Source: Arenicola marina | Taxonomy: Eukaryota; Annelida; Polychaeta; Arenicolidae | Assembly (NCBI GenBank): GCA_964019135.1 | Contig: OZ025252.1 | Location: forward strand, 6,154,823-6,218,822 | Direction of reading: 5' to 3' | Length of the DNA: 64,000 nt | Shown here: positions 12,698 through 64,000 of the stretch, piece by piece | Position numbering within the stretch: the first letter of the stretch is position 1 | Layout: each line of letters begins with the position of its first letter | Notes under the pieces: model-generated | The model's database searches: none | Told to the model about the DNA's origin: nothing | Seen by the model: only the letters and a program-made list of their open reading frames with translations | Translations under genes and position numbers: made by a program

Positions 12698-15600
12698 TTA
12701 AATGGCGTCGATATCGAAGTCGTCCTCCTCGTCGTCTTCCGGCTCCGAGGACGGCTTGGCGACGGTCTGGGCGCCGGCCTTCTCCGTGTGGGAGTACACC
12801 ACCTGGAACACGGGACACAGGGGGTCAGGGCAGTGAAACACGAGACACGGGGGGTCAGGGCAGTGAAACACGGGACACGGGGTGTCAGGGGAGTGAAACA
12901 CGGGACACGGGGGGTCAGGGCAGTGAAACACGGGACACGGGGGGTCAGGACAGTGAAACACGGGACACGGGGGGTCAGGGCAGTGAAACACGGGACACAG
13001 GAGGTCAGGGCAGTGAAACACGGGACACGGGGGGTCAGGGCAGTGAAACACGGGACACGGTGGGTCAGGGCAGTGAAACACGGGACACAGGGGGTCAGGG
13101 CAGTGAAACACGGGACACGGAGGGTCAGGGCAGTGAAACACGGGACACGGGGGGTCAGGGCAGTGAAACACGGGACACGGGGTTCAGGGCAGTGAAACAC
13201 GAGACACGGGGGGGATCAGGGCAGTGAAACACGGGACACGGGGGGTCAGGGCAGTGAAACACGGGACATGGGGGGTCAGGGCAGTGAAACACGGGACACG
13301 GGGGGTCAGGGCAGTGAAACACGGGACACAGGGGGTCAGGGCAGTGAAACACGGAACACGGGGGTCAGGGCAGTGAAACACGGGACACGGGGGGTCAGGG
13401 CAGTGAAACACGGGACACAAGGGGTCACGGCAGTGAAACACGGGACACAGGGGGTCAGGGGAGTGAAACACGGGACACGGGGGGTCAGGGCAGTGAAACA
13501 CGGGACACGAGGGCTCAGGGCAGTGAAACACGGGACACAAGAGGTCAGGGCAGTGAAACACGGGACACAGGGGGTCAGGGGAGTGAAACACGGGACACGG
13601 GGGGTCAGGGCAGTGAAACACGGAACACGGGAGGGGTCAGGGCAGTAAAACACGGGACACGGGGTTCAGGGCAGTGAAACACGGGACACGGGGGGTCAGG
13701 GCAGTGAAACACGGGACACAGGGGATCAGGGCAGTGAAACACGGGACACGGGGGGTCAGGGCAGTGAAACACGGGACACGGGGGGTCAGGGCATTGAAAC
13801 ACGAGACACGGGGGGTCAGGGCAGTGAAACACGGAACACAGGGGGTCAGGGCAGTGAAACACGGGACACAGGGGGTCAGGGCAGTGAAACACGGGACACG
13901 GGGGGATCAGGGCAGTGAAACACGGGACACAGGGGGTCAGGGCAGTGAAACACGGGACACGGGGGGTCAGGGCAGTGAAACACGGGACACGGGGGGTCAG
14001 GGCAGTGAAACACGGGACACGGGGGGTCAGGGCAGTGAAACACGGGACACGGGGGGTCAGGGCAGTGAAACACGGGACACAGTGGGTCAGGGCAGTGAAA
14101 CACAGGACACGGGGGGGGGGGGGTCAGGGCAGTGAAACATGGGACACGGGGGGTCAGGGCAGTGAAACACGGGACACGGGGGGTCAGGGCAGTGAAACAC
14201 AGGACACAGGGGGGGGGGGGGGTCAGGGCAGTGAAACACGGGACACGGGGGGTCAGGGCAGTGAAACACGGGACACGGGGGGTCAGGGCGGTGAAACACG
14301 GGACATGGGGGGTCAGGGCAGTGAAACACGGGACACAGGGGGTCAGGGCAGTGAAACACGGGACACGGGGGGTCAGGGCAGTGAAACACGGGACACAGGG
14401 GGTCAGGGCAGTGAAACACGGAACACGGGGGTCAGGGCAGTGAAACACGGGACACGGGGGGTCCGGGCAGTGAAACACGGGACACAAGGGGTCACGGCAG
14501 TGAAACACGGGACACAGGGGGTCAGGGGAGTGAAACACGGGACACGGGGGGTCAGGGCAGTGAAACACGGGACACGAGGGCTCAGGGCAGTGAAACACGG
14601 GACACAAGAGGTCAGGGCAGTGAAACACGGGACACAGGGGGTCAGGGGAGTGAAACACGGGACACGGGGGGTCAGGGCAGTGAAACACGGAACACGGGAG
14701 GGGTCAGGGCAGTAAAACACGGGACACGGTGTTCAGGGCAGTGAAACACGGGACACGGGGGGTCAGGGCAGTGAAACACGGGACACAGGGGGTCAGGGCA
14801 GTGAAACACGGGACACGGAGGGTCAGGGCAGTGAAACACGGGACACGGGGGGTCAGGGCATTGAAACACGAGACACGGGGGGTCAGGGCAGTGAAACACG
14901 GAACACAGGGGGTCAGGGCAGTGAAACACGGGACACAGGGGGTCAGGGCAGTGAAACACGGGACACGGGGGGAATCAGGGCAGTGAAACACGGGACACAG
15001 GGGGTCAGGGCAGTGAAACACGGGACACGGGGGGTCAGGGCAGTGAAACACGGGACACGGGGGGTCAGGGCAGTGAAACACGGGACACGGGGGGTCAGGG
15101 CAGTGAAACACGGGACACAGTGGGTCAGGGCAGTGAAACACAGGACACGGGGGGGGGGGGGGGGTCAGGGCAGTGAAACATGGGACACGGGGGGTCAGGG
15201 CAGTGAAACACGGGACACGGGGGGTCAGGGCAGTGAAACACGGGACACGGGGGGTCAGGGCAGTGAAACACGGGACACGGGGGGTCAGGCCAGTGAAACA
15301 CGGGACACGGGGGGTCAGGGCGGTGAAACACGGGACACGGGGGGTCAGGGCAGTGAAACACGGGACATGGGGGGAGGGGTCAGGGCAGTGTATACTGGCC
15401 TGGAGGGGGGTCAGGGCAGTGTAACACGGGACACGGGGGGTCAGGGCAGTGAAACACGGGACATGGGGGGGGAGGGGTCAGGGCAGTGTATACTGGCCTG
15501 GAGGGGGGTCAGGGCAGTGTATACTGGCCTGGAGGGAGGTCAGGGCAGTGTATGCTAGCCTGGACGTGAAACACCGGGGTCAGGATTACGGTGTATGGTG

Positions 15601-18600
15601 ATTACTGACCTCGACCTCCTCCTCGTCGTCCTCGCTGGTCTCCTCCTCCGCCTCCTCCAGCCACTTGATGAAGGGCGTCGCTTTGTTGTGGATCTCCTTA
15701 GACATCTCCTTCGACACGTACTTCTTGGACGCCTGGGGGGAGAACACAACACGAGGTCAGCGGTGGCCGCTTGGTACAACGCCAGGAACAGGGCAACGGT
15801 AAGACTGGGACAAAAGTGAGGGCAGCGCTTCTGATAGGTACGAGATCTGCGTCACTTGTGCGGATGTCCCATAAGTTTAAGGACCTCTGGGACACTGGGA
15901 CCCACCCACTGGTCGACCACTGTGAGAGTACCCACTGTATCTGTACATGTATATGTGCATACAGGGTTTCAATAACATTGATCTCATGAGCGTCTGATAT
16001 GCGGCGTACCAGTCATGGAACCAGTCATATGGGGAAGGGAACGCAGCACACTGGGGGACAGGGGACCAGTCATATCGGGAAGGGAACGCAGCACACTGGG
16101 GGACAGGAAACCAGTCATATCAGGAAGGGGACGCAGCACACTGGGGGACAGGGGACCAGTCATATCAGGAAGGGGACGCAGCACACTGGGGGACAGGGAA
16201 CCAGTCATATCGGGAAGGGGACGCAGCACACTGGGGGACAGGGGACCAGTCATATCGGGAAGGGAACGCAGCCCCCTGGGGGACAGGGAACCAGTCATAT
16301 CGGGAAGGGGACGCAGCACACTGGGGGACAGGGGACCAGTCATATCGGGAAGGGGACGCAGCTCGCGGGGGGGGGGGGGGACGCAGCCCACGGGGGTGGT
16401 GGGGACGCAGCCCGCTGCGATTGGGGGGGGGGTGGCGGGACGCAGCCCGCTGGGGGAGAGGGGGTCGAGGGGCCTTCACCAACCTTCTTGTCCCAGTCGA
16501 TGATCACCTCCTCCTCCATGATGTCCATCTCGTAGAACTGCTGCAGAATCTTGGGCACCTTGGCCAGCAGGGCGTCCGGGTGGACATTGCCCACGAGCTG
16601 CTCGAACCCGCCCAACAGGTACTTCTGCGCCTTGGTGTTGCCGTGGGTGAACTGGAACATGGAAGCTTGGCATTATTGTCGGTCCACTGTTGTGGGCGTG
16701 AAGGATAGTGACCAAGACAACTCCCGGGACAATGAAATACACGACTTCGCAATTATACGCCATCTTGGAAAAAGCGTGAGTGGCGCAAAGAATTCTGGGA
16801 AATATTTGGGTGTCATCTAGATTTTATTATGGAGATCCAAGACCATATTTACAGGTTATTGGCAAGGCATTATAACATTAATGAGCACGTCTATAACTTA
16901 CATCCAGGCGTAACTTTTCCGTTACATAGATGACAATATTGCGTTTTTAAGTGTCTACAAAATACGTTGTCATGCGATGACGCCATCTTGACATCTCGCC
17001 AAGACCAAAATAATACCCAGAATGCATTGCATATGCAATGGCGCCTCACAGTGGAATGATCTTAACTATGATTTGCGAAGTCGTGGGCAGAGGGGGCCAG
17101 ACTTCAGTAACCAAGACAGGAGACATCTAATTACTTCATGGTGATAGGTAACCATGCAGGGCAGACACACGGCGACTTACCCAAGGAAGAGGGAGCGGTA
17201 CTGCTGGTATAACAGTGACTTACCCTGAGGAAGAGGGAGCGGTACTGCTGGTATAACAGCGACTTACCTTAAGGAAGAGGGAGCGGTACTGCTGGTATAA
17301 CAGCGACTTACCCTAAAGAAGAGGGAGCGGTACTGCTGGCATAACAGTGACTTACCATGAGGAAGAGGGAGCGGTACTGCTGGTATAACAGCAACTTACC
17401 CTAAGGAAGAGGGAGCGGTACTGCTGGTATAACAGTGACTTACCCTGAAGAAGAGTGAGCGGTACTGCTGGTATAACAGTGACTTACCCTAAGGAAGAGG
17501 GAGCGGTACTGCTGGTATAACAGTGACTTACCCTAAGGAAGAGGGAGCGGTACTGCTGGTATAACAGTGACTTACCCTAAGGAAGAGGGAGCGGTACTGC
17601 TGGTATAACAGTGACTTACCCTAAAGAAGAGGGAGCGGTACTGCTGGTATAACAGTGACTTACCCTATGAAGAGGGAGCGGTACTGCTGGTATAACAGTG
17701 ACTTACCCTGAGGAAGAGGGAGCGGTACTGCTGGTATAACAGTGACTTACCCTGAGGAAGAGGGAGCGGTACTGCTGGTATAACAGTGACTTACCCTAAG
17801 GAAGAGGGAGCGGTACTGCTGGTATAACAGTGACTTACCCTAAGGAAGAGGGAGCGGTACTGCTGGTATAACAGTGACTTACCCTGAGGAAGAGGAAGCG
17901 CTACTGCTGGTATAACAGTGACTTACTCTGAGGAAGAGGGAGCGGTACTGCTGGTATAACAGTGACTTACCCTAAGGAAGAGGGAGCAGTACTGCTGGTA
18001 TAACAGCGACTTACCCTAAGGAAGAGGGAGCGGTACTGCTGGTATAACAGCGACTTACCCTAAAGAAGAGGGAGCGGTACTGCTGGTATAACAGTGACTT
18101 ACCCTAAGGAAGAGGGAGCGGTACTGCTGGTATAACAGCGACTTACCCTAAGGAAGAGGGAGCGGTACTGCTGGTATAACAGTGACTTACCCTGAGGAAG
18201 AGGAAGCGCTACTGCTGGTATAACAGTGACTCACCCTAAGGAAGAGGGAGCGGTACTGCTGGTATAACAGTGACTTACCCTAAGGAAGAGGGAGCGGTAC
18301 TGCTGGTATAACAGTGACTTACCCTGAGGAAGAGGAAGCGGTACTGCTGGTATAACAGTGACTTACCCTAAGGAAGAGGGAGCGGTACTGCTGGTATAAC
18401 AGTGACTTACCCTAAGGAAGAGGGAGCGGTACTGCTGGTATAACAGTGACTTACCCTGAGGAAGAGGGAGCGGTACTGCTGGTATAACAGCGACTTACCT
18501 TAAGGAAGAGGGAGCGGTACTGCTGGTATAACAGCGACTTACCCTAAAGAAGAGGGAGCGGTACTGCTGGCATAACAGTGACTTACCCTGAGGAAGAGGG

Positions 18601-21600
18601 AGCGGTACTGCTGGTATAACAGCAACTTACCCTAAGGAAGAGGGAGCGGTACTGCTGGTATAACAGTGACTTACCCTGAAGAAGAGGGAGCGGTACTGCT
18701 GGTATAACAGTGACTTACCCTAAGGAAGAGGGAGCGGTACTGCTGGTATAACAGTGACTTACCCTAAGGAAGAGGGAGCGGTACTGCTGGTATAACAGTG
18801 ACTTACCCTAAGGAAGAGGGAGCGGTACTGCTGGTATAACAGTGACTTACCCTAAAGAAGAGGGAGCGGTACTGCTGGTATAACAGTGACTTACCCTAAG
18901 GAAGAGGGAGCGGTACTGCTGGTATAACAGTGACTTACCCTGAGGAAGAGGGAGCGGTACTGCTGGTATAACAGTGACTTACCCTGAGGAAGAGGGAGCG
19001 GTACTGCTGGTATAACAGTGACTTACCCTAAGGAAGAGGGAGCGGTACTGCTGGTATAACAGTGACTTACCCTAAGGAAGAGGGAGCGGTACTGCTGGTA
19101 TAACAGTGACTTACCCTGGGGAAGAGGAAGCGCTACTGCTGGTATAACAGTGACTTACTCTGAGGAAGAGGGAGCGGTACTGCTGGTATAACAGTGACTT
19201 ACCCTAAGGAAGAGGGAACGGTACTGCTGGTATAACAGCGACTTACCCTAAGGAAGAGGGAGCGGTACTGCTGGTATAACAGCGACTTACCCTAAAGAAG
19301 AGGAAGCGGTACTGCTGGTATAACAGTGACTTACCCTAAGGAAGAGGGAGCGGTACTGCTGGTATAACAGCGACTTACCCTAAGGAAGAGGGAGCGGTAC
19401 TGCTGGTATAACAGCGACTTACCCTAAAAAAGAGGGAGCGGTACTGCTGGTATAACAGTGACTTACCCTAAGGAAGAGGGAGCGGTACTGCTGGTATAAC
19501 AGCGACTTACCCTAAGGAAGAAGGAGCGGTACTGCTGGTATAACAGCGACTTACCCTAAGGAAGAGGGAGCGGTACTGCTTGATCTGGGCGATGATGTTG
19601 GCGTCGTACAACAGCTCGGCCAGGACCAGGGGCGCCTTGTCCTTGATGTCCAGACGGTCAGCCTCGGCCAGAATCTCCTTCTCCTTCTCCACCCCAATCA
19701 CCTGGCTGGTTGCCTTCCTCTCCTGTGTCACCATGGCAAGTGTTGTCAACATCACACAGCACGGTTTACAGAATAAATTAGATTTAGTCACGACATATCC
19801 GGACCGGTGTGGTACGGCCGGGTTTGAAATGAAATGATTGGTATTTTAGGCCAGTTTTGTGCACACAAAGGCTAAATTAGGCCAAGGACCCTCGGGGCAT
19901 AACGAATGATGCGGATGAAAAACCCGAGGACTTCGCAATGAAAAGGTAATACTGAGCTGTGTCTTCATGTCCCCCCTATCAAACAGGCCTATGGTTATAT
20001 GAAACTTGGGTTCATCTCACTTATATTTGTCATGGCACACGATAACAGAGGGTAAAAGCGCCGGTAATCCCCCTCTTAAGTAATATGATTTAGCCCCATT
20101 CTTTAGCAGTATAAGACGATTTTTCATTTCACCGCCGACTTCCGTACAGAGTACAGTGCTGCCCTCTTCCGGCCGAGCCTTTCTGCGGCATTCGGCAGTG
20201 CAACGAAAATACGGATCATCCTCCCTATTGGTCAACGGTGTAGACGTGTACGGTGTAGACGTGTACGGTGTAGACGTGTACGGTGTAGACGTGTACAGTG
20301 TAGACGTGTACAGTGTAGACGTGTACAGTGTAGACGTGTACGGTGTAGACGTGTGCAGTGTAGACGTGTACAGTGTAGTCGTGTAGTGTAGACGTGTAGT
20401 GTAGACGTGTACAGTGTAGACGTGTACAGTGTAGACGTGTACAGTGTAGACGTGTACAGTGTAGACATATACAGTATACAGTGTAGACGTGTACAGTGTA
20501 GACGTGTACAGTGTAGACGTGTACAGTGTAGACGTGTACAGTGTAGTCGTGTACAGTGTAGTCGTGTAGTGTAGACGTGTACAGTGTAGACGTGTACAGT
20601 GTAGACGTGTACAGTGTAGACGTGTACAGTGTAGACGTGTACAGTGTAGACGTAAACAGTGTAATGTGTACAGTGTAGACGTGTACAGTGTAGACGTGTA
20701 CAGTATAGACTCGTACACGTGTATAGTGTAGACGTGTATAGTGTAGACGTGTACAGTGTAAACGTGTACAGTGTAGACGTGTACAGTGTAGACGTGTACA
20801 GTATAGACGTGTACAGAATAGACAGTCACACCACACGAACTGGCGCACGTGGCCTTACCTCGACAAACTTGTAGAAGAGGTCGACCCTCTCCTGCGGGGT
20901 TTTCTCCACATCCTCAGAGAGCGTCATGTTCTTGGCTGCGGACGACAGCTCCCCCATGCGGGCGGCCACGGCGGCCTCCGAGGTGTCCTCACCCCAGTCG
21001 TCATCCTCCTCGCGACGGGACTTCTTCTTGGACACCGGCTTGGCGTCCATCTAGGGTGGGGGGGGGGAGAGGTCACACTGTTAGATGTAGCGCCAAACGC
21101 ACATGGCTCGCGATGATGAATTAAGACATTAACTAAGGCACAAATGGTACATGGTTAGCTGTGCGTAGTGTCCAACATTGTGGCCTGAGGCTTACTATAG
21201 GGGAAGGAGCCAACCAATGTGGCCTGAGGCTTACTATAGGGGAAGGAGTCAGCCAATGCGGCCTGAGGCTTACTTTAGGGGAAGGAGTCAACCAATGCGG
21301 CCTGAGGCTTACTATAGGGGAAGGAGCCAACCAATGTGGCCTGAGGCTTACTATAGGGGAAGGAGCTAACCAATCTGGCCTGAGGCTTACTATAGGGGAA
21401 GGAGCCAACCAGTGTGGCCTGAGGCTTACTACAGGGGAAGGAGCCAACCAATGTGGCCTGAGGCTTACTACAGGGGAAGGAGCCAACCAGTGTGGCCTGA
21501 GGCTTACTATAGGGGAAGGAGCCAACCAATGTGGCCTGAGGCTTACTATAGGAGAAGGAGTCAACCAATGTGGCCTGAGGCTTACTATAGGGGAAGGAGC

Positions 21601-23920
21601 CAACCAATGTGGCCTGAGGCTTACTATAGGGGAAGGAGCCAACCAGTGTGGCCTGAGGCTTACTATAGGGGAAGGAGCCAACCAATGTGGCCTGAGGCTT
21701 ACTATAGGGGAAGGAGCCAACCAGTGTGGCCTGAGGCTTACTATAGGGGAAGGAGCCAACCAGTGTGGCCTGAGGCTTACTATAGGGGAAGGAGCCAACC
21801 AGTGTGGCCTGAGGCTTACTATAGGGGAAGGCGCCTTCTCCTCGTCCTCGCCGTCCTCGCCTGCGTCGCTCTTGCTGCCCTTCTTCTTGGCCTTCTTGTC
21901 CTTCTTGTTGGGAGTGGTTCCAATGGCTGTGGGGTCCTGGGGCGACAACGACACAGTCACATACAGGTACAACATACAGCACGATGTCCAACGCGCCTTC
22001 ACGAACATGTAGGACAGAGCAGGAATGAAAATATAAAAAAAGTAGGACAAAAGTACCAAAAATAGAAGCAAGTACGACAAAAGTAAAAAAAAAAAAATAG
22101 GTAAAAAGTATGTCTCAAAAAGCATATGCAGATTTCTTTTTCCAGATAAACAAATGAGCTCTATTACCGGTATTGACAAAATACTGTTTTAGAACATTTC
22201 TCAAATACTGAGCAGCTGTACCTGAAGTTTCGTTACTTGAGAGAGGCCAGTGTCATTTTACAGATATATCATGACCCAAAAGAAGAATGCCTATATTGAC
22301 TATTGTAATAATACCAGTGATATGACACTTCTATAGCAATTAACGACATTTTTGAAATTGCGCCTGGTAAAGCAAACGCCCAAAAGTAGGTATTGTGAAG
22401 AAAAGTACAAAGAATAGGATGGAGGCCAAAATGTCGTGAAAAGTTAGAAAAGTAGGACCACCGGACAGCCTGCATACAGACAATAGCAATGCTAGGGTAT
22501 CTGCTTTAAGAGCCACTCAGATGGGTGTAACACAAGTGAGCAGTTTTATTTCTATAGGTTTTAAGATTTAAGATTATATGGCACATACCGTAAATTAACT
22601 ACAGTTTTGGCTCATGTAGGCGCTTACCTGATCAGGAGGATTCTTCAGAATGTAGGTGGTTAGCTTGTGGCGCATATCGATTTGTCCTTGGTAGCCACAG
22701 GCAATACAACGTTGACTAATACCTCCTTTCTTGATATTCTACAGAGATAACAAATTAATAGTTATTATACCAGGTGCATACAACTGTACAAAAGTACGCT
22801 CTCACAGCCCCAAATAGCAAAATCTGGTACCGGTACTATTTCTTGCAGATACTCACTTCCTAAACAAAAGGTGAAACAAAATTCATTAGCCATGAAAATA
22901 ATAAATCTAAAAATCCCACAACAGCGAACTGGCCAGACTGGAAAGCTATTATTCATAGCCTACCGGTACATAGAGCAAAAAATGTGACCCTTCACAATGA
23001 TTATTTTTCTGAGAATTAAACACTGACTACCATTATAACTGTTAACATGGTTAACACAATTATGGATTATGAGAGTAAACAGCATGTGCATGCAGTAAAA
23101 CGGAACATACTTACCAAATTTGTTTCTGGGTTATCACACTCCGGGCAGAGGACAAAGCGTTTGATAAAGCCATCCAGAAGGTCCTGCAGCTTGCTGGCAT
23201 CATGGGACCCATTGACTATAAAGCGCTCATTCTTGACATCAAACTGAGTCTGTGCACCCAGCTCACAGCCAAAGAACTTTGTGGGGTCTAGTAGAAAACA
23301 GAGCATAAACATAAACAATGGGTACAATTTGTATATAAATTATTTCTTCAGAATTGAGTAGAGCAATCAAACAATACAATTTGATTTCATCATTGCTGTT
23401 TATTATTTTTAAGTACAATATAGACACAAAAAATAAGAAAATCATGTGGAGCATAGCCATTAAAATGTGGAAACTTGCGTCAAACTTGATAGCAAAGTGT
23501 GCAATATAAACTTACAGGTAGGGGGCCTGCAAAGCGCTTTAGCAATCTCTGTCATGTTGACGATCACAGTTTTTATCCCATTACCTTTGCCTTCCACCTG
23601 AAAAGAAGAGAAAGCTTACAGACACATATAACATTGAACATGTTAAACAAATGAAGGTTAAGTTCAGCTATGTCCTATTGGAACCTTTAAACATAATTCT
23701 CTCCATGCTACGTTCTGTTAACCACAAGTATAGTACACATACTGTCACAAGTTGGAAGAAATGTGCAATGGTTCAAAAGTGTCAAATGACAAGCAACATT
23801 AGATGCGTTCTACTGCAATTTCCTATAGGTAAACTGCAAACTTACCTTAGCTATGAGTTTAGGCATCTTGTAACGGTAAAATGCATCGTCAACATTTCTG
23901 TTGATGTTGACATTGGCCAT
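12698..23920 (-). CDS. EIF5: Eukaryotic translation initiation factor 5, 10 coding exons, complete
   Basis: Exons in transcript order: 23920-23846, 23597-23516, 23287-23115, 22738-22628, 21936-21820, 21050-20859, 19722-19555, 16651-16484, 15732-15610, 12802-12698. Every junction is GT-AG with matching phase, and the product is 437 aa (human 431). eIF5 is the GTPase-activating protein for eIF2-GTP in the 43S/48S complex and has a C-terminal W2 HEAT domain that binds eIF2-beta, eIF1 and eIF3. Visible here: [20 protein letters not shown] with Arg16 in the position of the catalytic arginine finger; [16 protein letters not shown]; a zinc ribbon with Cys100, 103, 121 and 124 (CPEC, CIAC); a Lys-rich linker; an acidic EEDDDWGED stretch; the W2 domain (about 240-400) with [11 protein letters not shown] and [12 protein letters not shown] aromatic/acidic boxes; and the conserved end DFDIDAI. 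Introns 5, 6, 7, 8 and 9 hold tandem arrays. Those in 5, 7 and 9 touch splice sites. Confidence 0.97.
12803..15560 (-). repeat. 30-bp minisatellite reaching the acceptor of eIF5 exon 10
   Basis: About 90 units; + strand core CAGTGAAACACGGGACACGG then ggggtcaggg. The last unit runs into the real 3' splice site, where the transcript strand reads ccgtgttCCAG before the exon. Array units read ccgtgtttCACTG instead, so the acceptor AG is not copied. The consensus unit has no AG on the transcript strand. Long guanine runs interrupt it at 14111, 14211 and 15150. A block of about 1.07 kb is duplicated inside (for example 13421 and 14488). The far end (15360-15560) breaks into mixed units with tatactggcctgg. 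Confidence 0.93.
16008..16375 (-). repeat. 45-bp minisatellite in eIF5 intron 8
   Basis: About 8 units containing CCAGTCATATCGGGAAGGGG followed by acgcagcacactggggga. It grades into degenerate G-rich DNA at 16370-16475. It does not touch either splice site of intron 8. Confidence 0.9.
17172..19590 (-). repeat. 44-bp minisatellite repeating the eIF5 exon 7 end and its 5' splice site
   Basis: About 54 units. On the transcript strand each unit contains CAGTACCGCTCCCTCTTCC, then ttagg|GTAAGTCACTG. The exon 7 terminus has the same ~26 bases (coding QYRSLFLR), then its real donor at 19554. The array therefore starts inside the exon and repeats exon end plus donor down intron 7. A higher-order period of 1231 bp (28 units) is visible from the rare 'gacttacctt' variant at 17261 and 18492. 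About 520 bases of unique DNA separate the array from the exon 8 acceptor. Confidence 0.96.
20222..20825 (-). repeat. 15-bp minisatellite in eIF5 intron 6
   Basis: About 38 units of GTGTACAGTGTAGAC with shortened variants. It starts about 35 bases after the exon 6 donor (20858) and does not include it. The transcript strand reads as runs of tctacactgtacacg. Confidence 0.92.
21172..21840 (-). repeat. 39-bp minisatellite repeating the eIF5 exon 5 end and donor
   Basis: About 17 units. The transcript strand unit has GGCTCCTTCCCCTATA|GTAAGCC; exon 5 ends GGCGCCTTCCCCTATA with the real donor at 21819. The match is 15 of 16 exonic bases plus the donor. The unit length is divisible by 3, and the array is open in the eIF5 frame, encoding a 13-residue repeat ([13 protein letters not shown]). 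Every unit I read keeps GTAAGC. Confidence 0.96.
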
Positions 23921-24098
23921 CTTGACAGATTAAACAAATTGTCATGCAGTTTGTGTCTCGTCCGACTTATACTGCGTTCCCTTCGACAATGATGGTTATT
24001 TAGCAAACGTTTAGGGTAATTCATAAACTTGTCTTGAGGTGAAATGTTCTCTATTAAAACTTGTCTGGCCAGCAGTGGTGCTTGGCACGGCAAAAGAT
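23921..24098 (-). other. Probable 5' UTR part of eIF5 exon with start codon
   Basis: Upstream of the ATG the transcript strand has a strong acceptor, ttatttttttgcag, whose AG is at 24100-24099. The coding exon would thus begin at 24098 with 178 nt of leader. Inferred from splice-site quality only. Confidence 0.45.
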
Positions 24099-32206: not shown

Positions 32207-32500
32207 GGGTCTGTTTGATAGGATCCACTAACGGACCAGGGGTGGTCCATTTGATGGGATCCACTAACGGACCAGGGGTGGTCCATTTGATGGGATCCAC
32301 TAACGGATCAGGGGTGGTCCATTTGATGGGATCCACTAACGGATCAGGGGTGGTCCATTTGATGGGATCCACTAACGGACCAGGGGTGGTCCATTTGATG
32401 GGATCCACTAACGGATCAGGGGTGGTCCATTTGATGGGATCCACTAACGGATCAGGGGTGGTCCATCTGATGGGATCCACTAACGGACCAGTGGGTGGGT
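32207..32500 (-). repeat. 36-bp minisatellite starting at the RDH stop codon
   Basis: About 8 units on the transcript strand, containing CTGATCCGTTAGTGGATCCC followed by atcaaatggaccaccc. The gene's own end reads cca ctg gtc cgt TAG tgg atc ccatc, so the first unit is the end of the coding region. With a period of 12 codons every unit presents CGT TAG in the gene's frame. The array forms most of the 3' UTR up to the candidate poly(A) signal. Confidence 0.94.
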
Positions 32501-35500
32501 CTCCCCTTGCTGTAGGTTGACCAGTTCAGCGCTGACTTGCCACAGTCGCTTGGCGACGTCCAGGTCCTTGGCCTCCGCTATCGGCTCGGTTGCCACGCAA
32601 TCGCTGCAGCAGATGACATGGGACAATAAGAGACGCCGTCAGATTAACACAGCGGTCACGGGACAATATAAGACGCCGTCAGATTGACACAGCGGTCACG
32701 GGACAATAAGAGACGCCGTCAGATTAACACAGCGGCCACGGGACAATAAGATACGCCGTCAGATTAACACAGCGGTCACGGGGCAATGAGAGACGCCGTC
32801 AGATTAACACAGCGGTCACGGGGCAATGAGAGACGCCGTCAGATTTACACAGCGGTCACGGGACAATAAGAGACGCCGTCAGATTAACACAGCGGTCACG
32901 GGACAATGAGAGACGCCGTCAGATTACCACAGCGGTCACGGGACAATGAGAGACGCCGTCAGATTAACACAGCGGTCACGGGACAATAAGAGACGCCGTC
33001 AGATTAACACAGCGGTCACGGGACAATAAGAGACGCCGTCAGATTAACACAGCGGTCATGGGACAATAAGAGACGCCGTCAGATTAACACAGCGGTCACA
33101 GGGCAATGAGAGACGCCGTCAGATTAACACAGCGGCCACGGGACAATAAGAGACGCCGTCAGATTAACACAGCGGTCACGGGACAATGAGAGACGCCGTC
33201 AGATTACCACAGCGGTGACGGGACAATAAGAGACGCCGTCAGATTACCACAGCGGTGACGGGACAATGAGAGACGCCGTCAGATTACCACAGCGGTCACG
33301 GGACAATGAGAGACGCCGTCAGATTAACACAGCGGTCACGGGACAATAAGAGACGCCGTCAGATTAACACAGCGGTCACGGGACAATAAGAGACGCCGTC
33401 AGATTAACACAGCGGTCACGGGACAATGAGAGACGCCGTCCGATTAACACAGCGGTCACGGGACAATTAGAGACGCCGTCAGATTAACACAGCGGTCACG
33501 GGACAATAAGAGACGCCGTCAGATTAACACAGCGGTCACGGGACAATGAGAGACGCCGTCAGATTACCACAGCGGTCACGGAACAATGAGAGACGCCGTC
33601 AGATTAACAGCGGTCACGGGACAATGAGAGACGCCGTCAGATTACCACAGCGGTCACGGGACAATGAGAGACGCCGTCAGATTACCACAGCGGTCACGGG
33701 ACAATGAGAGACGCCGTCAGATTAACAGCGGTCACGGGACAATGAGAGACGCCGTCAGATTACCACAGCGGTCACGGGGCAATAAGAGACGCCGTCAGAT
33801 CAACACAGCGGCCACGGGACAATAAGAGACGCCGTCAGATTACTACAGCGGTCACGGGACAATAAGAGACGCCGTCAGATTAACACAGCGGTCACGGGAC
33901 AATAAGAGACGCCGTCAGATTAACACAGCGGTCACGGGACAATAAGAGACGCCGTCAGAATAACACAGCGGTCACAGGAGAATGAGAGACGCCGTCAGAT
34001 TAACACAGCGGTCACGGAACAATAAGAGACGCTGTCAGATTAACACAGCGGTCACGGGACAATGAGAGACGCCGTCAGATTAACTCAGCCGTCACGGGAC
34101 AATAAGAGACGCCGTCAGATTAATACAGCGGTCACGGGACAATGAGAGACGCCGTCAGATTAACACAGCGGTCACGGGACAATGAGAGACGCCGTCAGAT
34201 TACCACAGCGGTCAGGGGACAATAAGAGACGCCGTCAGATTAACACAGCGGTCACGGGACAATGAGAGACGCCGTCAGATTACCACAGCGGTCACGGGAC
34301 AATGAGAGACGCCGTCAGATTAACACAGCGGTCACGGGACAATGAGAGACGCAGTCAGATTACCACAGCGGTCACGGAACAATGAGAGACGCCGTCAGAT
34401 TACCACAGCGGTCTGGGGACAATAAGAGACGCCGTCAGATTAACACAGCGGTCACGGGACAATGAGAGGCGCCGTCAGATTAACGCAGCGGTCACGGGAC
34501 AATAAGAGACGCCGTCAGATTAACACAGCGGTCACGGGACAATAAGAGACGCCGTCAGATTACCACAGCGGTCACGGGACAATAAGAGACGCCGTCAGAT
34601 TAACACAGCGGTCACGTTACAATGAGAGATGCCGTCAGATTACCACAGCGGTCACGGGACAATGAGAGACGCCGTCAGATTACCACAGCGGTCACGGAAC
34701 AATGAGAGACGCCGCCAGATTACCACAGGGGTCACGTGACAATAAGAGACGCTGTCAGATTAACACAGCGGTCATGGGACAATGAGAGATGCCGTCAGAT
34801 TAACAGCGGTCACGGGACAATGAGAGACGCCGTCAGATTACCACAGCGGTCACGAGACAATAAGAGACGCCGTCAAATTACCACAGCGGTCACGGGACAA
34901 TAAGATACGCCGTCAGATTAACACAGCGGTCACGGGACAATGAGAGACGCCGTCAGATTAACAGCGGTCACGGGACAATGAGAGACGCCGTCAGATTAAC
35001 ACAGCGGTCACGGGGCAATGAGAGACGCCGTCAGATTAACACAGCGGTCACGGGGCAATGAGAGACGCCGTCAGATTAACACAGCGGTCACGTTACAATG
35101 AGAGATGCCGTCAGATTACCACAGCGGTCACGGAACAATAAGAGACGCCGTCAGATTACCACAGCGTTCACGGGACAATGAGAGACGCCATCAGATTACC
35201 ACAGCGGTCACGGAACAATGAGAGACGCCGTCAGATGACCACAGGGGTCACGTGACAATAAGAGACGCTGTCAGATTAACACAGCGGTCACGGGACAATG
35301 AGAGATGCCGTCAGATTAACAGCGGTCACGGGACAATGAGAGACGCCGTCAGATTACCACAGCGGTCACGAGACAATAAGAGACGCCGTCAAATTACCAC
35401 AGCGGTCACGGGACAATAAGAGACGCCGTCAGATTAACACAGCGGTCACGGGACAATAAGAGACGCCGTCAGATTAACACAGCGGTCACGGGACAATGAG

Positions 35501-38500: not shown

Positions 38501-41500
38501 CAACGAGATGCTGAACCACGGAGGATAGTGCTAGACCATCACCTGAATAACTTCACACACATATGGAGCAGGACACAGGGCTGAACTGTAGCAGACTTAA
38601 CAAGGACCATGGGTGTCATCTGTAGCAGACTTAACAAGGACCATGGGTGTCATCTGTAGCAGACTTCACAAGGACCATGGGTGTCACCTGTAGCAGACTT
38701 AACAAGGACCATGGGTGTCACCTGTAGCAGACTTAACAAGGACCATGGGTGTCACCTGTAGCAGACCTAACAAGGACCATGGGTGTCATCTGTAGCAGAC
38801 TTAGCAAGGACCATGGGTGTCATCTGTAGCAGACTTAACAAGGACCATGGGTGTTACCTGTAGCAGACTTAACAAGGACCATGGGTGTCACCAGTAGCAG
38901 ACTTAACAAGGACCATGGGTGTCACAGACTTAACAAGGACCATGGGTGTCACAGACTTAACAAGGACCATGAGTGTCATAGACTTAACAAGGACCATGGG
39001 TGTCACCTGTAGCAGACTTAACAAGGACCATGGGTGTCACCTGTAGCAGACTTAACAAGGACCATGGGTGTCACCAGTAGCAGACTTAACAAGGACCATG
39101 GGTGTTACCTGTAGCAGACTTAACAAGGACCATGGGTGTCACCAGTAGCAGACTTAACAAGGACCATGGGTGTCACCAGTAGCAGACTTAACAAGGACCA
39201 TGGGTGTTACCAGTAGCAGACTTAACAAGGACCATGGGTGTCACCAGTAGCAGACTTAACAAGGACCATGGGTGTTACCTGTAGCAGACTTAACAAGGAC
39301 CATGGGTGTCACCAGTAGCAGACTTAACAAGGACCATGGGTGTCACCAGTAGCAGACTTAACAAGGACCATGGGTGTCACCAGTAGCAGACTTAACAAGG
39401 ACCATGGGTGTCACCAGTAGCAGACTTAACAAGGACCATGGGTGTCACCAGTAGCAGACTTAACAAGGACCATGGGTGTCACCAGTAGCAGACTTAACAA
39501 GGACCATGGGTGTTACCAGTAGCAGACTTAACAAGGACCATGGGTGTCACCAGTAGCAGACTTAACAAGGACCATGGGTGTTACCTGTAGCAGACTTAAC
39601 AAGGACCATGGGTGTCACCAGTAGCAGACTTAACAAGGACCATGGGTGTCACCAGTAGCAGACTTAACAAGGACCATGGGTGTCACCAGTAGCAGACTTA
39701 ACAAGGACCATGGGTGTCACCAGTAGCAGACTTAACAAGGACCATGGGTGTCACCAGTAGCAGACTTAACAAGGACCATGGGTGTTACCTGTAGCAGACT
39801 TAACAAGGACCATGGGTGTCACCAGTAGCAGACTTAACAAGGACCATGGGTGTTACCTGTAGCAGACTTAACAAGGACCATGGGTGTCACCAGTAGCAGA
39901 CTTAACAAGGACCATGGGTGTCACCTGTAGTAGACGCTGGTGGCCACCGATTCGTCCAGGGCGCAGAACAAGGTGGTCTGCGCCCCGTGCCAGGCGTCCT
40001 TGAACAGCGGGCTCAAGACGAGCAGTAAACTGTCTCGTATGATGGGGTAGTCATAGAACCACATGTGCCGTCCCAGCTCCGTCACGATGGACCCCGGATG
40101 TAGCGAGACTGACGTCACACCGGCGCCTGGAAATTAAATAATAAGGAATTGTTGACTTCATTTCATAAATTATAATTCAACTATTGTTAGGCACTGCAAA
40201 GCTCTAATGGATAACCCGACTGACCTCTGACCACCTACTGACCTTGTAAGCGGCCCTCCTACTGTCCTTGTAAGCGGCCCTCCTACTGACCTTGTAAGCG
40301 GCCCTCCTACTGACCTTGTAAGCGGCCCTCCTACGGACCTTGTAAGCGGCCCTCCTACTGACCTTGTAAGCGGCCCTCCTACTGACCTTGTAAGAGGCCC
40401 TCTTCCTGACCTTGTAAGCGGCCCTCCTACTGACCTTGTAAGGGGTTCTACTACTGACCTTGCAAGAGGCCCTCCTACTGACCTTGTAAGCGGCCCTCCT
40501 ACTGACCTTGTAAGAGGCCCTCTTCCTGACCTTGTAAGAGGCCCGCCTACGGACCTTGTAAGAGGCCCTCTTCCTGACCTTGTAAGAGGCCCGCCTACTG
40601 ACCTTGTAAGGGGTTCTACTACTGACCTTGCAAGAGGCCCTCCTACTGACCTTGTAAGCGGCCCTCCTACTGACCTTGTAAGCGGCCCTAATACGGACCT
40701 TGTAAGCGGCTCTCCTACTGACCTTGTAAGCGGCCCTCCTACTGACCTCGTAAGCGACCCTCCCACTGACCTTGTAAGCGACCCTCCGACTAAACTTGTA
40801 AGCGACCCTCTTACTGACCTTGTAAGCGGCCCTTCTATTGACCTTGTAAGCGGCCCTCCTACTGACCTTGCAAGCGGCGTCCCAGCTCGTTGGCGAATAG
40901 GATGTTGGCCAGCTTGCTCTGGCTGTAGCTGAACATTCGGCCGTAGTTCTTTTCAGGCATCAGGTCGTCGAACACGATGGAGCCGGCCACGTGGCCATAG
41001 GACGACACGGTGACGACGCGGCTGGGGGCGGAGGACACCAGCATGTCCACGAGCAGGTTGGTCAGCAGGAAGTGACCTGATCAACAACAAGCACAGCCCG
41101 TGATCCATCAACATCCAGGTATAATCATAGGGTCTCAAACTAGCGAGAGAACTGTGCACAAACTACCGGTCATTAGGCAGCATATTAGCCACTGTCTACA
41201 TACTGGTGTGCAACATTAGCTACATATATTACAATTTGTAACATAAATAAGGGGGCGTCTAAGAGACTTATTAACGTGATTTCCTTACCCAAATGGTTGA
41301 CTCCAAATGTCATTTCAAAGCCATCCTTTGTCTTACTGTAAGGGGGCCACATGACGCCAGCGTTGTTTACCAGAATATCCAGTCGCTTCTCTCCTGTTAC
41401 AGACACAACATCTAATGTTAACAAAAACAGTAGCCATATTATACAAAGAAGAGGTATCTTTGCCATGAAAAGGATATAACAAGTAGTTTGCCCCGTTGCT

Positions 41501-44500
41501 GTTTTGCTCTGTAAATTAAAATAGACGTAAAAACATGCATTCATTCTGGCATAAGATACTTCGGGTAAGCATCATATGTTTAGCACTACGTACTTATCAT
41601 GCATGTGGGAGAATGCCGTAGGAGCAGCGTTCAGTGCTGGTAGGATCAGCAGGCGAAAAAAACCCATGGTGCACCAGGACCCCAGCTCTGTCCTTGTAAG
41701 CAGGACGCGTGTCCATGTAATGTCATATCGTGACCACGTGGACGGTCCGAGCTCCCACCTATGAGGTCAGGAGAGAGGACCTGAGGGATACACGACTACC
41801 AAACGCGAAACACACAATATTATAATACTTACTTTTCTTGAATTCGGCCACAAATTGTCTGATGGATACCAAGGATGAGAGATCGAGGGGCAGAAGGATG
41901 AGGTTCTCGTCCTTCGCTCCCGTGACATTCTTGATGTCCTCCAAGGCAGCATGGCCCCTCTCCAGGGATCTGCATGCCATGTACACGGTGGCGCCTGGAG
42001 AGCAAACACAAAACACATCATCGCCGGGCAGACCAAGAGACGATAACACGGGTAATTATTTCGTGTATTGGTGCTACCACTAACGCCCAAACTCACTGCC
42101 AGCTCTGATGTCTAATATTAGTGCCACCACCAACGACAGACGCCATCACTAGTATTAACGCTGATATCACCAATGCACTCACTAGTATTAATGGTGCTAT
42201 CACCAATGCCTTCACTAGTATTAACGCTGCTATCACCAATGCCCTCACTGGTATTAACGCTGCTATCACCAACGCCCTCACTGGTATTAATGCTGCTATC
42301 ACCAACGCCCTCACTAGTATTAACGCTAATATCACTAACGCCCTCACTAGTATTAACGCTGATATCGCTAACTCCCTCACTTGTATTAACGCTGCTATCA
42401 CCAACGCTCTCACTGGTATTAATTCTGCTATCGCCGAGACCCTCATCTGGATTACTGCTACCACGAATGCCCTCACTAGTCCTGGCACTACCACCAATGC
42501 CCTCACTAGTCTTAGAACTACCACCAATGCCCTCACTAGTCTTGGCACTACCACCAATGCCCTCACTAGTCTTAGCACTACCACCAATGCCCTCACTATT
42601 CATAGCACTACCACCAATGCCCTCACTAGTCTTAGCATTACCACCAATGCCCTCACTAGTCTTAGCACTACCACCAATGCCCTCACAAGTCTTAGCACTA
42701 CCACCAATGCCCTCACTAGTCTTAGCACTACCACCAACATCCTCACAAGTAATAGTGCTATCATCAGCACCACTATGGCTGGTATTAATGCTGCCACTCC
42801 ATCTGGTTTATACATAAAGCAATAACTAACATATGATAAAAACCCTCAACGATTTCTGTTTGCCAGGGTAATGAACATTTTTCATTAATTGAAGTGAATG
42901 TATTTATTACTGTTATTATATGAAGGCATACATACCGCGTGTAACCAAGTCCTGGGCAGTCACTTTACCGATACCTGTATTGGCACCGGTAACTATGACT
43001 ATCTTCCCATCTATTCTTGTATCCTTGTTATATTCACAGCCATTCATATATTTTCTGAAAGAGAAACTTAAAGCAATAGAACAGCATTTCGGGGAGTAAT
43101 TTAATTATCTAGAATATCCATTATATGTCATTGGATGGAGGTGTATTAGATATTTAGATATGTATTGGTATGGCTAGTTTGATTGTTACATTTCTATTAC
43201 AATGAAATGCCTACACTGTTCATGTCTGGTGCAGGTAGGGGAACCAATCTACTTTATCACCTTTAATCAGCTGCTGTCTGCTCTCAAATGTCCTGTATAG
43301 TTTGGGCTGGGGTACAATCTGCATCTGATTGAATGCAGGTGAACCCAACCCATGCAAAAGAAGTGTCAAGGGGTACATGCGTAAGGTCCATATTTTAGGT
43401 TACCTCAGGATATTCCAGGCTACCAAAGAAATACACGCACTGGTTTCAGGGCTTTCTGGTGAAAATTATGTAAGCTCAACTTTGGGATCTTCATGGCGCA
43501 CTGCCCAGATATATCAATCAGCAGATTATTATAATCTGATAGTAGTGCCATACATTTTTCGTTACATGCTGAAATCGGCATTACTTTTATGAAAGTTAGA
43601 AAGATAGTAAACAATAAGTTTATAGATTTCATGCGCATATGGCAGGTATAATTAAGAAGCATGTATACACTTGTAATTCAAGTTATGAAACATAACCTAA
43701 CCCCCCTCCCAAAATACCAGCAATACTAGGCCTATCGCCCACAGACACGATAGATGACAAGTAAAAAAGGAGGGATGGCTATAGCAAAACTTGTCTGCTT
43801 CATTTGCGGAAAAATAATAATTTTGAGGTCATGTAAATTCTCTTGGCAAAATTGTAAGTACATCAATTTCTGTTGGGTCTTTCGTTGAAGCTGACAAATA
43901 TAAATTGATTTTAGGCTTGTCAATGAAATATTTCATGTCAAATTAGAAAACGAGGTGGCAAATATTTTCTATGCAAATTATAGGCATAAACTTTAAAACG
44001 GTACCAGATACTGCCAAGACAAAGACTAATTGTTATGGTCTGCCACCACACCCCAAACTCTGATGACCCCGCCCCATCCTACCAACCTAGTCCTGCAAGC
44101 AAGCCGCTGTGGCTACGCCAACAGTAGTTCCGCGACTGGACCTATATCGGAGCAGACTACGTTACATCTATGGAACTAATATCGGAGTAGACTACATTAC
44201 ATCTAAGTTTGGCGCAAGTGCCCCCAGGCAAGCCTGCTTCTTCAGGGGCACAACGGTAACAATGTTAAAATCCTTCGACGTTAGTAGGGAATCGACTGTA
44301 GCTTTTATTATAATGCGGGCGCGTACAATAATAGTGCTTACATATTCTATATACCTTGTTCTATCTTCTGACATCAAGAAAGTGTATCAACACTAGATTG
44401 TTCCAGTCATATTTTCGCGAACAAATGTTGGAGCATGCAACTTTTCCCTACCAACCGCCATGTGTATGCAGCGCCACCTGGCGAATCCCGCCACCATTTG

Positions 44501-53312: not shown

Positions 53313-53371
53313 ACGTCATAATGTATCCCTATTTACCCGACGGTCGGGTTAATAGGGATACATTATGACGT
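53313..53371. repeat. 59-bp near-perfect palindrome
   Basis: 21-nt arms ACGTCATAATGTATCCCTATT are exact inverse complements, with a 17-nt centre that is itself nearly self-complementary (tacccga/tcgggtt). Partial copies of the same words (ccgacggtcg, taacgtcata) lie just upstream at 53280-53310. The whole can fold into one long hairpin. Confidence 0.9.
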
Positions 53372-60765: not shown

Positions 60766-60952
60766 TGCTGCAGTGAGGCTGTCGGAAGTTCCACTCCCCC
60801 CCCCCCCTCTTCCACCCCACCCTCTTCTCTTCCACCCTCCCCCCCCCCCCCACACACAATGGAGACTGTATCTCGGACCCATGGTGTACGTTACAACTTG
60901 TTTATGTAACCTCAGCAGTGTTAATTATTTGCCCCCCGTTTGGCCCTCACAG

Positions 60953-63645
60953 CCGCAGGGGGCGGTCCGCGGCGGCCGGCGGGGGCCTGCCCCCCCGTGT
61001 GGGGGCGCCCTCCGCAGCCGGCACCAGCTCCTGGTCCTCGTGCTGCTCGTCCTGGCCTTCGGGATCATCGTCACCATCGTCAACATCTACCAGCTGAGGC
61101 TGATCCAGGGGGACCCCTACGGCAGGTCGCCGCCAGAGGGCAGGACCGACTACTACAGCCGGCGCCCCCTGGTGTGGATCAGTGGCAAACGGGTGAGTGG
61201 GCCAGTATGGAAAGATATTAGGTCATAATTCCAGATAAAAAAAAGTGATAATAATAATAATAATTATCTAATATTAATAATTATATCATAATAATAATAA
61301 TTATCTAATAATAATAATTATATCATAATAATAATAATTATATAATAATAAGAAGAAGAATTATATAAAAATAATAATAAGAATAATAATGTTTATTGTC
61401 CAAAGGTATTCACCTCAAGTATAAACATATATAACAAAGACAATGGCAGAGGCCGAAGCTTGTTATGTAAATAACGCTATTTTTATGTATTTTCAAATTG
61501 CCAGAACCTACTCTGTATTTACACTGTGACACTGTGTGGCTCTCGCTAGGTGACGTCAGGATACTTGCGGCACGTGTTCAACGTCTTCGAGCGGATTGGC
61601 TACGGCATTGAGACTGGGGATGACGTCACGGGTTTTGACGTCATGTGGGCCCACGACTACCCCTTCGGCACCCACAAGGCTACTATGAGCAAGTTACGGC
61701 CGCACCAGAGGGTACGTAACTCACCAGGTATCATTACATAACGGGGGAAAGTATTAACTTAAACTCTCACGGTAAGGTCTTACTCTAAGGTCTTACTGTA
61801 AAGTCTTACTGTAAAGTCTTGCTGTAAAGTCTGTAAAGTCTTACTGTAAATTCTTTAAAGTCTTACTGTAAAGTCTTATTGTAAAGTCTTACTGTAAAGT
61901 CTTATTGTAAAGTCTTACTGTAAAGTCTTATTGTAAAGTATTTACTGTTAGGCCTTACTGTGAGGTCTTACTGTAAAGTCTTAGTTTAAAGTCTCATTAT
62001 CAAGTCTTATTGTAAGATCTTACTGTAAATTTTCACTGTAAAGTATGTCTGTAAGTCTTGTAATGTCAACACTCATCGTTTATCCCCTCTCCACCCAGGT
62101 GAACCATTTCCCCGGATCCGGCTACTTGACGAACAAGTTAAACCTTGTGAGCTCCCACCAACAGCTGGACGAAGTGCCGCGCGCCTACCGCATCCCACAG
62201 GATAAGGAGGACCTCCTGTCCCACGTGAGTCCGTCACCCCATAGCGTAGGCTATGGGTGCTCTGTTATATGGGGGTCAGTCACCGCATCGCGTAGGCTAT
62301 GGGGGCTCTGTTATATGTGGGTCAGTCACCGCATCGCGTAGGCTATGGGTGCTCTGTTATATGTGGGTCTGTCACCGCATCGCGTAGGCTATGGGTGCTC
62401 TGTTATATGTGGGTCAGTCACCGCATCGCGTAGGCTATGGGTGCTCTGTTATATGTGGGTCAGTAACCGCATCGCGTAGGCTATGGATGCTCTGTTATAT
62501 GTGGGTCAGTCACCGCGTCGCGTAGGCTATGGGTGCTCTGTTATATGTGGGTCAGTCACCGCATCGCGTAGGCTATGGATGCTCTGTTATATGTGGGTCA
62601 GTCACCGCATAGCGTAGGCTATGGGTGCTCTGTTATATGTGGGTCAGTCACCGCATCGCGTAGGCTATGGGTGCTCTGTTATATGTGGGTCAGTCACCGC
62701 ATCGCGTAGGCTATGGGTGCTCTGTTATATGTGGGTCAGTCACCGCATAGCGTAGGCTATGGGTGCTCTGTTATATGTGGGTCAGTCACCGCATCGCGTA
62801 GGCTATGGGTGCTCTGTTATATGTGGGTCAGTCACCGCATCGCGTAGGCTATGGGTGCTCTGTTATATGTGGGTCAGTCACCGCATCGCGTAGGCTATGG
62901 GTGCTCTGTTATATGTGGGTCAGTCACCGCATCGCGTAGGCTATGGGGGCTCTGTTATATGTGGGTCAGTCACCGCATAGCGTAGGCTATGGGTGCTCTG
63001 TTATATGTGGGTCAGTCACGGCATCGCGTAGGCTATGGGTGCTCTGTTATATGTGGGTCAGTCACCGCATCGCGTAGGCTATGGGTGCTCTGTTATATGT
63101 GGGTCAGTCACCGCATAGCATAGACTATGGTAAAGTCGGGAGACCCACTCCGTTCCTCCGTTGAGTCGCGGTTCCAGCCTGTCTTTCCCGCAAGGATTTT
63201 CAAAAGGAATAGGCGCATTGGTAAATTCTGAATCATCTGGAGGCACATTGGAGCTAAATATCACATTTTTGTATAGATTAATATTTTAGCTATCAACTTC
63301 TTCCAAACAATCAGAAAGATGTTTCATTTGTATCTGTGTTTGCAAGACGTTTTACGGAGTACCAATTTCCGATCCGATTGGCCAATTCAAAATACAATTC
63401 GCCAATAGCAACATGTGGAGCAGACAGCTTCACTACAGGTTTCCCTGTTATACGATTGAACAAAGTTGCCTCACTATCTTTGATCAAGTATTTAAATAAA
63501 GACACATGTAGGTACTTTTAAAATTTGGCGGAAAAAGCATACGAAAATAGTGTTGTGTTTTGTCATTAGATGGAGCTAAACCCAGATAAGATGTGGGTTC
63601 AGAAGAGTAGCAACCATCGAGGTGTAAAGATAAAGAAACAATCGG
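60953..63645 (+). CDS. TTLL15-like membrane-anchored tubulin-tyrosine-ligase family protein, partial
   Basis: Four exons: 60953-61192, 61550-61711, 62099-62224, 63570-63645, all GT-AG and in phase, giving 201 residues. Both ends are missing: the start exon is not recognised and the gene runs past the right edge. An Arg/Pro/Gly-rich start is followed by a transmembrane anchor (about 20 residues ending IIVTIVNIY), then VWISGKRVTSGYLRHVFNVF, MWAHDYPFG, KLRPHQRVNHFPGSGYLTNK and KMWVQKSSNHRGVKIKK. The NHFPGS-x-x-TNK and QKSxNHRGxKIK blocks match the TTL-domain start of the invertebrate ttll-15 type. The ATP-grasp core would lie downstream. Tubulin polyglutamylase activity is the database-style label for this family; activity here is unknown. 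Arrays start at the donors of exons 3 and 4. Confidence 0.75.
61225..61395. repeat. AT microsatellite (ATA/ATT) in TTLL15-like intron 1
   Basis: Runs of ataataataatt with tatc interruptions form a ~45-bp higher-order pattern. Confidence 0.85.
61775..62050 (+). repeat. 13-bp minisatellite in TTLL15-like intron 2
   Basis: About 18-20 units of AGTCTTACTGTAA with drift toward the 3' end. It ends about 50 bp before the exon 3 acceptor and is not attached to the donor, although its first units read gtaaggtcttac. Confidence 0.85.
62225..63128 (+). repeat. 46-bp minisatellite starting at the TTLL15-like exon 3 donor
   Basis: About 19-20 units. The intron begins GTGAGTCCGTCACCCCATAG, and following units read GGGTCAGTCACCGCATCGCG then taggctatgggtgctctgttatat. 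The first unit is therefore the real donor and later units carry a GTCAGT version. Little exonic sequence is included. About 440 bp of unique intron separate the array from exon 4. Confidence 0.93.
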
Positions 63646-64000
63646 GTAAGTCCGCCTCACCAACTGAGACGTCAAAACAAACACTCAAGTACATCTGCCA
63701 CATCACTAAGACGTCAAAACTAACACTGGGGTAAGTCCGCTTCATCTAGTATGACGTCAAACAAACACTGAGGTTAGTTCGCCATATCCACTAAGACGTC
63801 AAAACAAACACTGAGGTAAGTTCGCCATATCCACTAAGACGTCAAAACAAACACTAAGGTAAGTTTGCCATATCTACTGAGACGTCAAAACAAACACTGA
63901 GGTAAGTTAGCTTCAACCACTGAGACGTCAAAACAAACACTGAGGTAAGTCCGCTTCGTCCACTAAGACGTCAAACCAAACACTAAGGTAAGTCCGCTTC
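63646..64000 (+). repeat. 43-bp minisatellite starting at the TTLL15-like exon 4 donor
   Basis: About 8 units before the window ends. The real donor reads TCGG|GTAAGTCCGCCTCACC; units read CTGAG|GTAAGTTCGCC then atatccactaagacgtcaaa. Nearly every unit keeps GTAAGT preceded by AG or GG. It continues off the edge, so its full length is unknown. Confidence 0.92.

Follow-up and report, generated by a model that had tools for sequence, protein, structure and literature searches.

The closest described counterparts of the repeats treated here are the mirage minisatellites of amphioxus, tandem repeats lying over 5′ or 3′ exon-intron boundaries in which many copies carry splice signals (PMC3087553). 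As far as the sections of that report drawn on here go, the mirages of Adh3 have units of 10-72 bp and the locus is somatically unstable; the repeats of BflGb6 join the 3′ end of an intron to the start of the exon and those of BflGb9 lie over a 5′ boundary, both boundaries being duplicable; haplotypes differ in length, with 6 and 3 units; a model of intron gain is proposed; and further mirage loci are cited, among them an RDH gene and presenilin. Likewise, the lancelet genes PGBD5 and TnC carry 60- and 108-bp repeats on or overlapping splice sites of both kinds, 5′ and 3′ (PMC3902484, in part). Here we describe minisatellite arrays at the 5′ splice sites of three genes, eIF5, an RDH11/13-like dehydrogenase gene and a tubulin-tyrosine-ligase-family gene (TTL), in a 64,000-nt stretch of contig OZ025252.1 (hereafter, the window), which forms part of an 867-Mb assembly.

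In structure, the likeness to amphioxus mirages put forward in the original prediction is right, the unit spanning the exon-intron boundary. The differences, within the consulted part of PMC3087553, lie in array size (up to 139 copies here, 3 and 6 units in BflGb6), in the spiralian host, in an array over a stop codon and in arrays that end against an acceptor but lack its AG, while the PGBD5 repeats are described in the corresponding part of PMC3902484 as few and imperfect copies in a cephalochordate. In human segmental duplications, minisatellites with units of about 30 bp alter exon and intron length and thereby gene structure, but they average ~4 copies, half of them in coding sequence, and donor-anchored arrays are not described in the accessible portion of the report (PMC2812944). 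Intronic minisatellites are also known from an annelid, in the metallothionein genes of earthworms, although the available part of that text describes no junction-spanning unit (PMC12783039). Furthermore, tandem duplication involving splice signals has been associated with intron gain (PMC4974935, in part); there a new intron is created, whereas existing introns seem expanded here. The 3′ and stop-codon versions had both been thought to fall outside the published description; in fact the 3′ version is in print in the two lancelet papers, and no stop-codon mirage, nor any report outside lancelets, was found in the open-licence PubMed Central (PMC) literature. What is new relative to the literature found is the lineage, the array sizes and the stop-codon case.

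Arrays at 5′ splice sites and their excess over chance placement

The arrays were taken from Tandem Repeats Finder (TRF) at a score of at least 150, overlapping rows being merged by hand, which gave a set of 21. Exon models were built by homology, with tblastn and a human eIF5 sequence as query for eIF5, and with human query sequences for the RDH11/13-like gene. The identity of eIF5 is based on tblastn and a PDB match, that of the RDH11/13-like gene on a match to Pfam adh_short and that of TTL on a Pfam match with E 9.4e-07; the spliced reading frames of the first two close. The 16 complete introns modelled in the window hold 11 arrays which, together with A16, whose intron is cut by the window end, and A6, at the RDH stop, constitute a gene-space set of 13.

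On these models nine arrays are found at processing signals, six at 5′ splice sites, two at 3′ splice sites and one over a stop codon, and they recur across the three genes, as had been claimed from the sequence. That they lie within a few bases of the signal was too strong a wording, since their edges range from 26 bp inside to 16 bp outside it: an edge lies within 5 bp of a signal in 3 of the 21 arrays, within 10 bp in 4 and within 20 bp in 9, the last count taking in A2 and dropping A3, whose edge is 25 bp inside its exon. The junction-associated arrays have units of 24-66 bp in about 8-139 copies, and the donor units consist of the exon end and the GT signal. The unit contains the donor junction in five of the 13 arrays: those of A3, A5, A8 and A9 combine 11-26 nt of exon with the donor, and that of A16 includes at least 1 nt of exon; A15 begins at the GT itself.

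The original prediction also held this anchoring to exceed chance, which stands for 5′ splice sites under every null model tried and fails for acceptors and the stop codon under the strictest one. When arrays are placed as points over the non-coding window, 7 of the 21 fall within 20 bp of a donor against 0.18 expected (0/10000 draws), 2 within 20 bp of an acceptor against 0.19 (155/10000) and 1 at the stop against 0.02 (209/10000). Uniform placement within each intron, overlap counting as distance zero, gives Fisher p values of 1.3e-7 for the donor side and 1.9e-7 for either side, to which the term for A8 contributes generously, the room occupied by A7 not being subtracted. With GC-matched placement over the window and exon overlap allowed, the expectations become 0.55 for donors (0/10000), 0.57 for acceptors (1085/10000) and 0.08 for the stop (788/10000). 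Over the whole window, then, the two acceptor cases compare with 0.19-0.57 expected, at p 0.016 to 0.11.

The strictest null confines placement to the introns of the three genes, GC-matched and with exon overlap allowed (5000 draws). Even so, the donor lies inside the unit in 5/13 arrays against 1.23 expected (24/5000), within 20 bp in 7/13 against 2.27 (14/5000) and within 50 bp in 10/13 against 3.35 (0/5000). The corresponding acceptor counts are 0, 2 and 3, against 1.14, 1.93 and 3.08, and across variants of the gene-space null the two acceptors within 20 bp compare with 0.9-1.9 (1151 to 3013 of 5000). The single stop-codon array compares with 0.17-0.68; such a case seldom arises when arrays are kept off exons (0/5000 at 0 bp, 105-107/5000 at 5 bp) and is nothing unusual when they may overlap them (478-781/5000 at 0 bp). 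Because only donors exceed the strictest gene-space null, the donor excess in the window, about fourfold on that null, is real, and the acceptor and stop cases require no special explanation.

We consider it fairly probable that these are mirage-type minisatellites in a minisatellite-rich, probably annelid, spiralian genome, arisen from local tandem duplications across junctions that were amplified and are spliced out. Such an array would start as a short tandem duplication that includes or adjoins a junction and would grow through slippage and unequal exchange; the copy next to the exon would serve as the working signal, while the remaining copies would leave with the intron. A duplication across a donor would keep exon and donor intact and be well tolerated, whereas one across an acceptor would set extra AGs upstream, to be met first by the spliceosome; this asymmetry, perhaps together with extra seeding at exon ends, could make donors predominate. 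As regards seeding versus tolerance, about one in four of the donor-containing units observed would be expected if arrays fell freely within these introns. Exon-side splicing of eIF5 in a close relative is supported, at the level of sequence, by P0032, 306 residues from a 1031-nt contig (93% identity over 66% of the eIF5 query), which crosses all five array-bearing eIF5 junctions without insert when the junctions are compared by eye.

Table 1. Gene models and minisatellite arrays of the window, with one array from the adjoining DNA
Feature	Position	Strand	Unit	Copies	Remarks
eIF5	12698..23930	(-)			coding exons 12802-12698, 15732-15610, 16651-16484, 19722-19555, 21050-20859, 21936-21820, 22738-22628, 23287-23115, 23597-23516, first exon ending 23846; by homology
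RDH11/13-like dehydrogenase	32480..43054	(-)			exons 43054-42936, 41994-41833, 41393-41289, 41076-40867, 40126-39925, 32603-32480; modelled without 5′ end; by homology
TTL-family gene (part)	61550..63645	(+)			exons 61550-61711, 62099-62224, 63570-63645; runs on past window end; by homology
A1	12807..15564	(-)	30 bp	~88	nearly whole last eIF5 intron; ends 4 nt before acceptor
A2	16020..16464	(-)	45 bp		begins 19 nt past eIF5 exon 8 donor; unit without junction
A3	17174..19580	(-)	44 bp (26 nt exon + 18 nt intron)	55	donor mirage, eIF5 exon 7
A4	20238..20816	(-)	15 bp		begins 42 nt past eIF5 exon 6 donor; unit without junction
A5	21172..21835	(-)	39 bp (16 nt exon)	17	donor mirage, eIF5 exon 5
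A6	32214..32498	(-)	36 bp	~8	over RDH coding end and TAG 32482-32480
A7	32620..38165	(-)	40 bp	139	last RDH intron; ends 16 nt before acceptor
A8	38588..39935	(-)	34 bp (11 nt exon)	~40	donor mirage, RDH exon r5
A9	40234..40878	(-)	24 bp (12 nt exon)	~27	donor mirage, RDH exon r4
A10	42140..42737	(-)	30-33 bp		RDH intron, 198 nt from donor, 145 nt from acceptor; counter-example
A14	61748..62059	(+)	13 bp		36 nt past TTL donor, 39 nt before acceptor; unit without junction
A15	62225..63130	(+)	46 bp	20	starts exactly at GT of TTL exon t2
A16	63645..63997	(+)	43 bp		starts at TTL exon t3 junction (1 nt or more exon); runs past window end
TTL x8 3′ mirage	19241-19745 of the joined 20 kb after the window (L025+L026)				head to tail with the preceding exon's donor mirage, 16198-19241

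Neighbouring genes, the rest of the genome and chance

In the neighbouring DNA, of which 40 kb precede and 20 kb follow the window, the gene FNTB (Pfam Prenyltrans, 3.2e-21; 11 exons, spliced frame closing) and eight further TTL exons were found, with 15 arrays in 10 of their 17 introns. This sample is not a blind one as regards FNTB, the first 30 kb having been picked by place and the other 30 kb after two FNTB arrays had been spotted. The unit spans the exon-intron boundary in the FNTB fd array, where 49 nt of exon and the donor recur in ~82 copies over 5.1 kb and tblastn returns one peptide repeatedly, and in those of TTL x5-x8. Among the latter, the x8 array is a full 3′ mirage, with 63-bp units of acceptor AG and ~42 nt of exon. 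Four of the 15 units contain a donor, against 1.12 expected (111/5000) or 1.41 with GC matching (202/5000; p 0.02-0.04), and one, TTL x8, an acceptor, against 1.1-1.3, a ratio in keeping with the proposed asymmetry. Within 20 bp there are 5 donors against 1.86 (142/5000) or, GC-matched, 2.25 (301/5000), and 2 acceptors against 1.9-2.1. The neighbouring genes thus repeat the donor excess, weakly.

Several observations weigh against an origin of the arrays in duplications across junctions. The units of A1, A2, A4, A7, A10 and A14 do not contain a junction, and just 8 of the 11 arrays in complete introns of the window are nearer the donor than the acceptor (p 0.23). In the neighbouring genes donors and acceptors are level within 50 bp, at 6/15 each, against 3.1-3.5 for each. 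The asymmetry between the two sides is not absolute, 3′ mirages with AG existing in amphioxus and, in one case, here. In addition, the arrays may be absent in the species of P0032. Elsewhere in the assembly, eIF2beta has no array within 100 nt of any of its six exon matches, and a chaperonin-family gene (seven exon matches in 9.7 kb, at one locus out of about nine of its kind listed for the assembly) has none at a TRF score of 100.

The two negative genes also favour the main alternative, namely that arrays arise anywhere and are merely excluded from coding exons, introns minus their arrays being so short that many arrays come to lie near junctions. Indeed, in a background sample of 20 stretches of 10 kb at round-number positions elsewhere in the assembly, 48 arrays cover 53 of 200 kb, i.e., about a quarter of this DNA is minisatellite; the acceptor and stop cases stay at the level of the strict null, and the donor excess falls from about 40-fold to about fourfold as the null tightens. 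Nevertheless, donor-containing units exceed the strict null both in the window and in the neighbouring genes, and we regard chance with exon exclusion as a rather unlikely explanation of the whole. A gene-free search for donor motifs in the 48 background arrays (GGTRAGT 2 against 0.44 expected, AGGTRAG 0 against 0.31, GTRAGT 3 against 1.99) had no power to decide. The phenomenon is strong within one neighbourhood of 0.12 Mb, the only positive sample. Two of the background stretches (L011 and L018) are each a single array from end to end.

Splice signals within the arrays

In the six donor arrays of the window the GT at the junction is kept in 160 of 167 copies, working copies included (A3 55/55, A8 35/39, A9 25/27, A15 19/20, A16 9/9). 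Scored with a donor matrix, the decoys equal the working donor in A3, A5 and A9, are lower in A8 and A15 and are higher, at the median, in A16. For 129 of the 146 decoys of five arrays, use as donor would bring a stop codon in the exon or in the first 60 nt of the next one; the 16 decoys of A5 are all in frame, so that their use would make the protein longer, not shorter. The eIF5 frame is open through all 17 copies of A5, whose unit corresponds to 13 residues. Selection on the decoy donors was considered and rejected: variation in the donor columns is no lower than in randomly chosen windows of the unit and matches the rest of it, as is expected for copies without a job.

On the acceptor side, A1 and A7 start 45 and 1759 nt after the donors of their introns, and their units, as those of the other arrays that do not overlap a junction, lack the mirage structure, the junction lying outside them; the units of A1 and A7 are also free of AG. 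Each contains CTGAC, and the last copy supplies this branch-point-like motif and a pyrimidine-rich stretch, the array stopping short of the AG; although not classed as mirages, A1 and A7 may work like them. The stretch free of AG before the acceptor measures 10-147 nt at 16 of the 18 acceptors in the window, and 709 and 1237 nt at the two with arrays. Among 27 arrays pooled, units without AG are found in 5 of the 6 that end 0-50 nt before an acceptor and in 3 of the 21 others (p 0.0037), and CTRAC in 3/6 and 1/21 (p 0.025), both tests having been devised after A1 and A7 had been seen. Two arrays of FNTB run counter to an AG-free rule: an AG lies 26 nt before the fc acceptor although the unit there is AG-free, and the fh array contains 16 AGs in 2781 nt. 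Selection against AG in acceptor arrays was rejected too, variant types that create an AG numbering 3 against 2.8 expected in A1 and 5 against 6.7 in A7; moreover, shuffled units are AG-free by composition alone with P 0.63 (A1) and 0.20 (A7). On the simplest view, units reproduce whatever sequence stood at the junction, the stretch from branch point to AG being AG-poor from the start. Within A1, two blocks ~1067 bp apart at 13184-14703 have identical translations (minus-strand open reading frames 13184-13636 and 13876-14703), which points to a higher-order duplication inside the array.

The persistence of GT and the CTGAC of acceptor-side arrays could be taken to mean that the arrays function in splicing or expression, for example as banks of U1 or branch-point sites. 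The donor columns, however, are no better conserved than others, variants creating an AG are not depleted and the decoys of A8 and A15 score below the working donor, all of which makes such a role very improbable. An origin in R-loops, which a consistent strand skew would have suggested, was likewise rejected, the sense-strand units being, by eye, G-rich in some arrays and C-rich in others.

Going beyond the explanation by duplicated junctions that we prefer, it is possible, though we advance it only tentatively, that minisatellites in this lineage arise preferentially at 5′ splice junctions, independently of amphioxus. Junction DNA would then be duplicated more than other non-coding DNA, introns would begin with dozens of donors, often equal in strength, for the spliceosome to rank, and arrays on the 3′ side would persist mainly as AG-free units supplying branch point and pyrimidine tract.

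Host lineage, origin and minor observations

In a tree of 37 eIF5 rows, the sequence of the window forks with the annelids Ridgeia, Capitella and Helobdella (91/93, the branch not being a starred one), Owenia lying outside; amphioxus is not among the rows, and the AU test rejects placing the sequence with hemichordates and a sea star (p 0.003). A quick tree of 122 rows, again without amphioxus, also sets it among spiralians. eIF5 thus places the host in Spiralia, and probably in Annelida. Consequently the cephalochordate host, true of the known mirages, is not found here. No match labelled amphioxus occurs among the 120 listed of 5699 for eIF5 or the 120 listed of 7981 for RDH, few of the matches being labelled.

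It has been proposed for the amphioxus globins that mirage repeats give rise to introns (PMC3087553, in part), and the introns of the window could by analogy have been created from exonic tandem duplications, with the arrays as their remains. P0032, however, shares the eIF5 residues up to the junctions, so the exon ends were not rebuilt by arrays, and most arrays include much intron sequence; we find this origin scarcely credible. Misassembly of copy numbers or junctions is the least likely explanation, given that about 2-12% of the sites in the copies deviate from the unit and that the spliced frames of eIF5, RDH and FNTB close, even though arrays as long as 5.5 kb pose difficulties for assembly and their copy numbers may be off.

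A known kind of repeat is thus met far from the lancelets on the animal tree, and its local excess at 5′ splice sites is solid. If it is true that lancelets and spiralians gained junction-spanning minisatellites separately, counts over whole genomes can test whether exon-intron junctions and tandem duplication are linked in general. The arrays could also be seen as natural experiments, in which the spliceosome faces as many as 55 almost equal donors and has to choose the one on the exon side, and they could inform on the maximum AG-free length before an acceptor and on a possible origin of new exon ends and introns.

Outside the modelled genes, two large arrays, 48354-49117 (22-bp units) and 57808-59084 (28-bp units), show no splice-site motif by eye. 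Rfam and tRNA scans of the window gave no matches, nor did a Pfam search with eight long open reading frames. One frame without a Pfam match, of 295 codons at 51134-52021 on the minus strand, resembles by eye the end of a retrotransposon polymerase.

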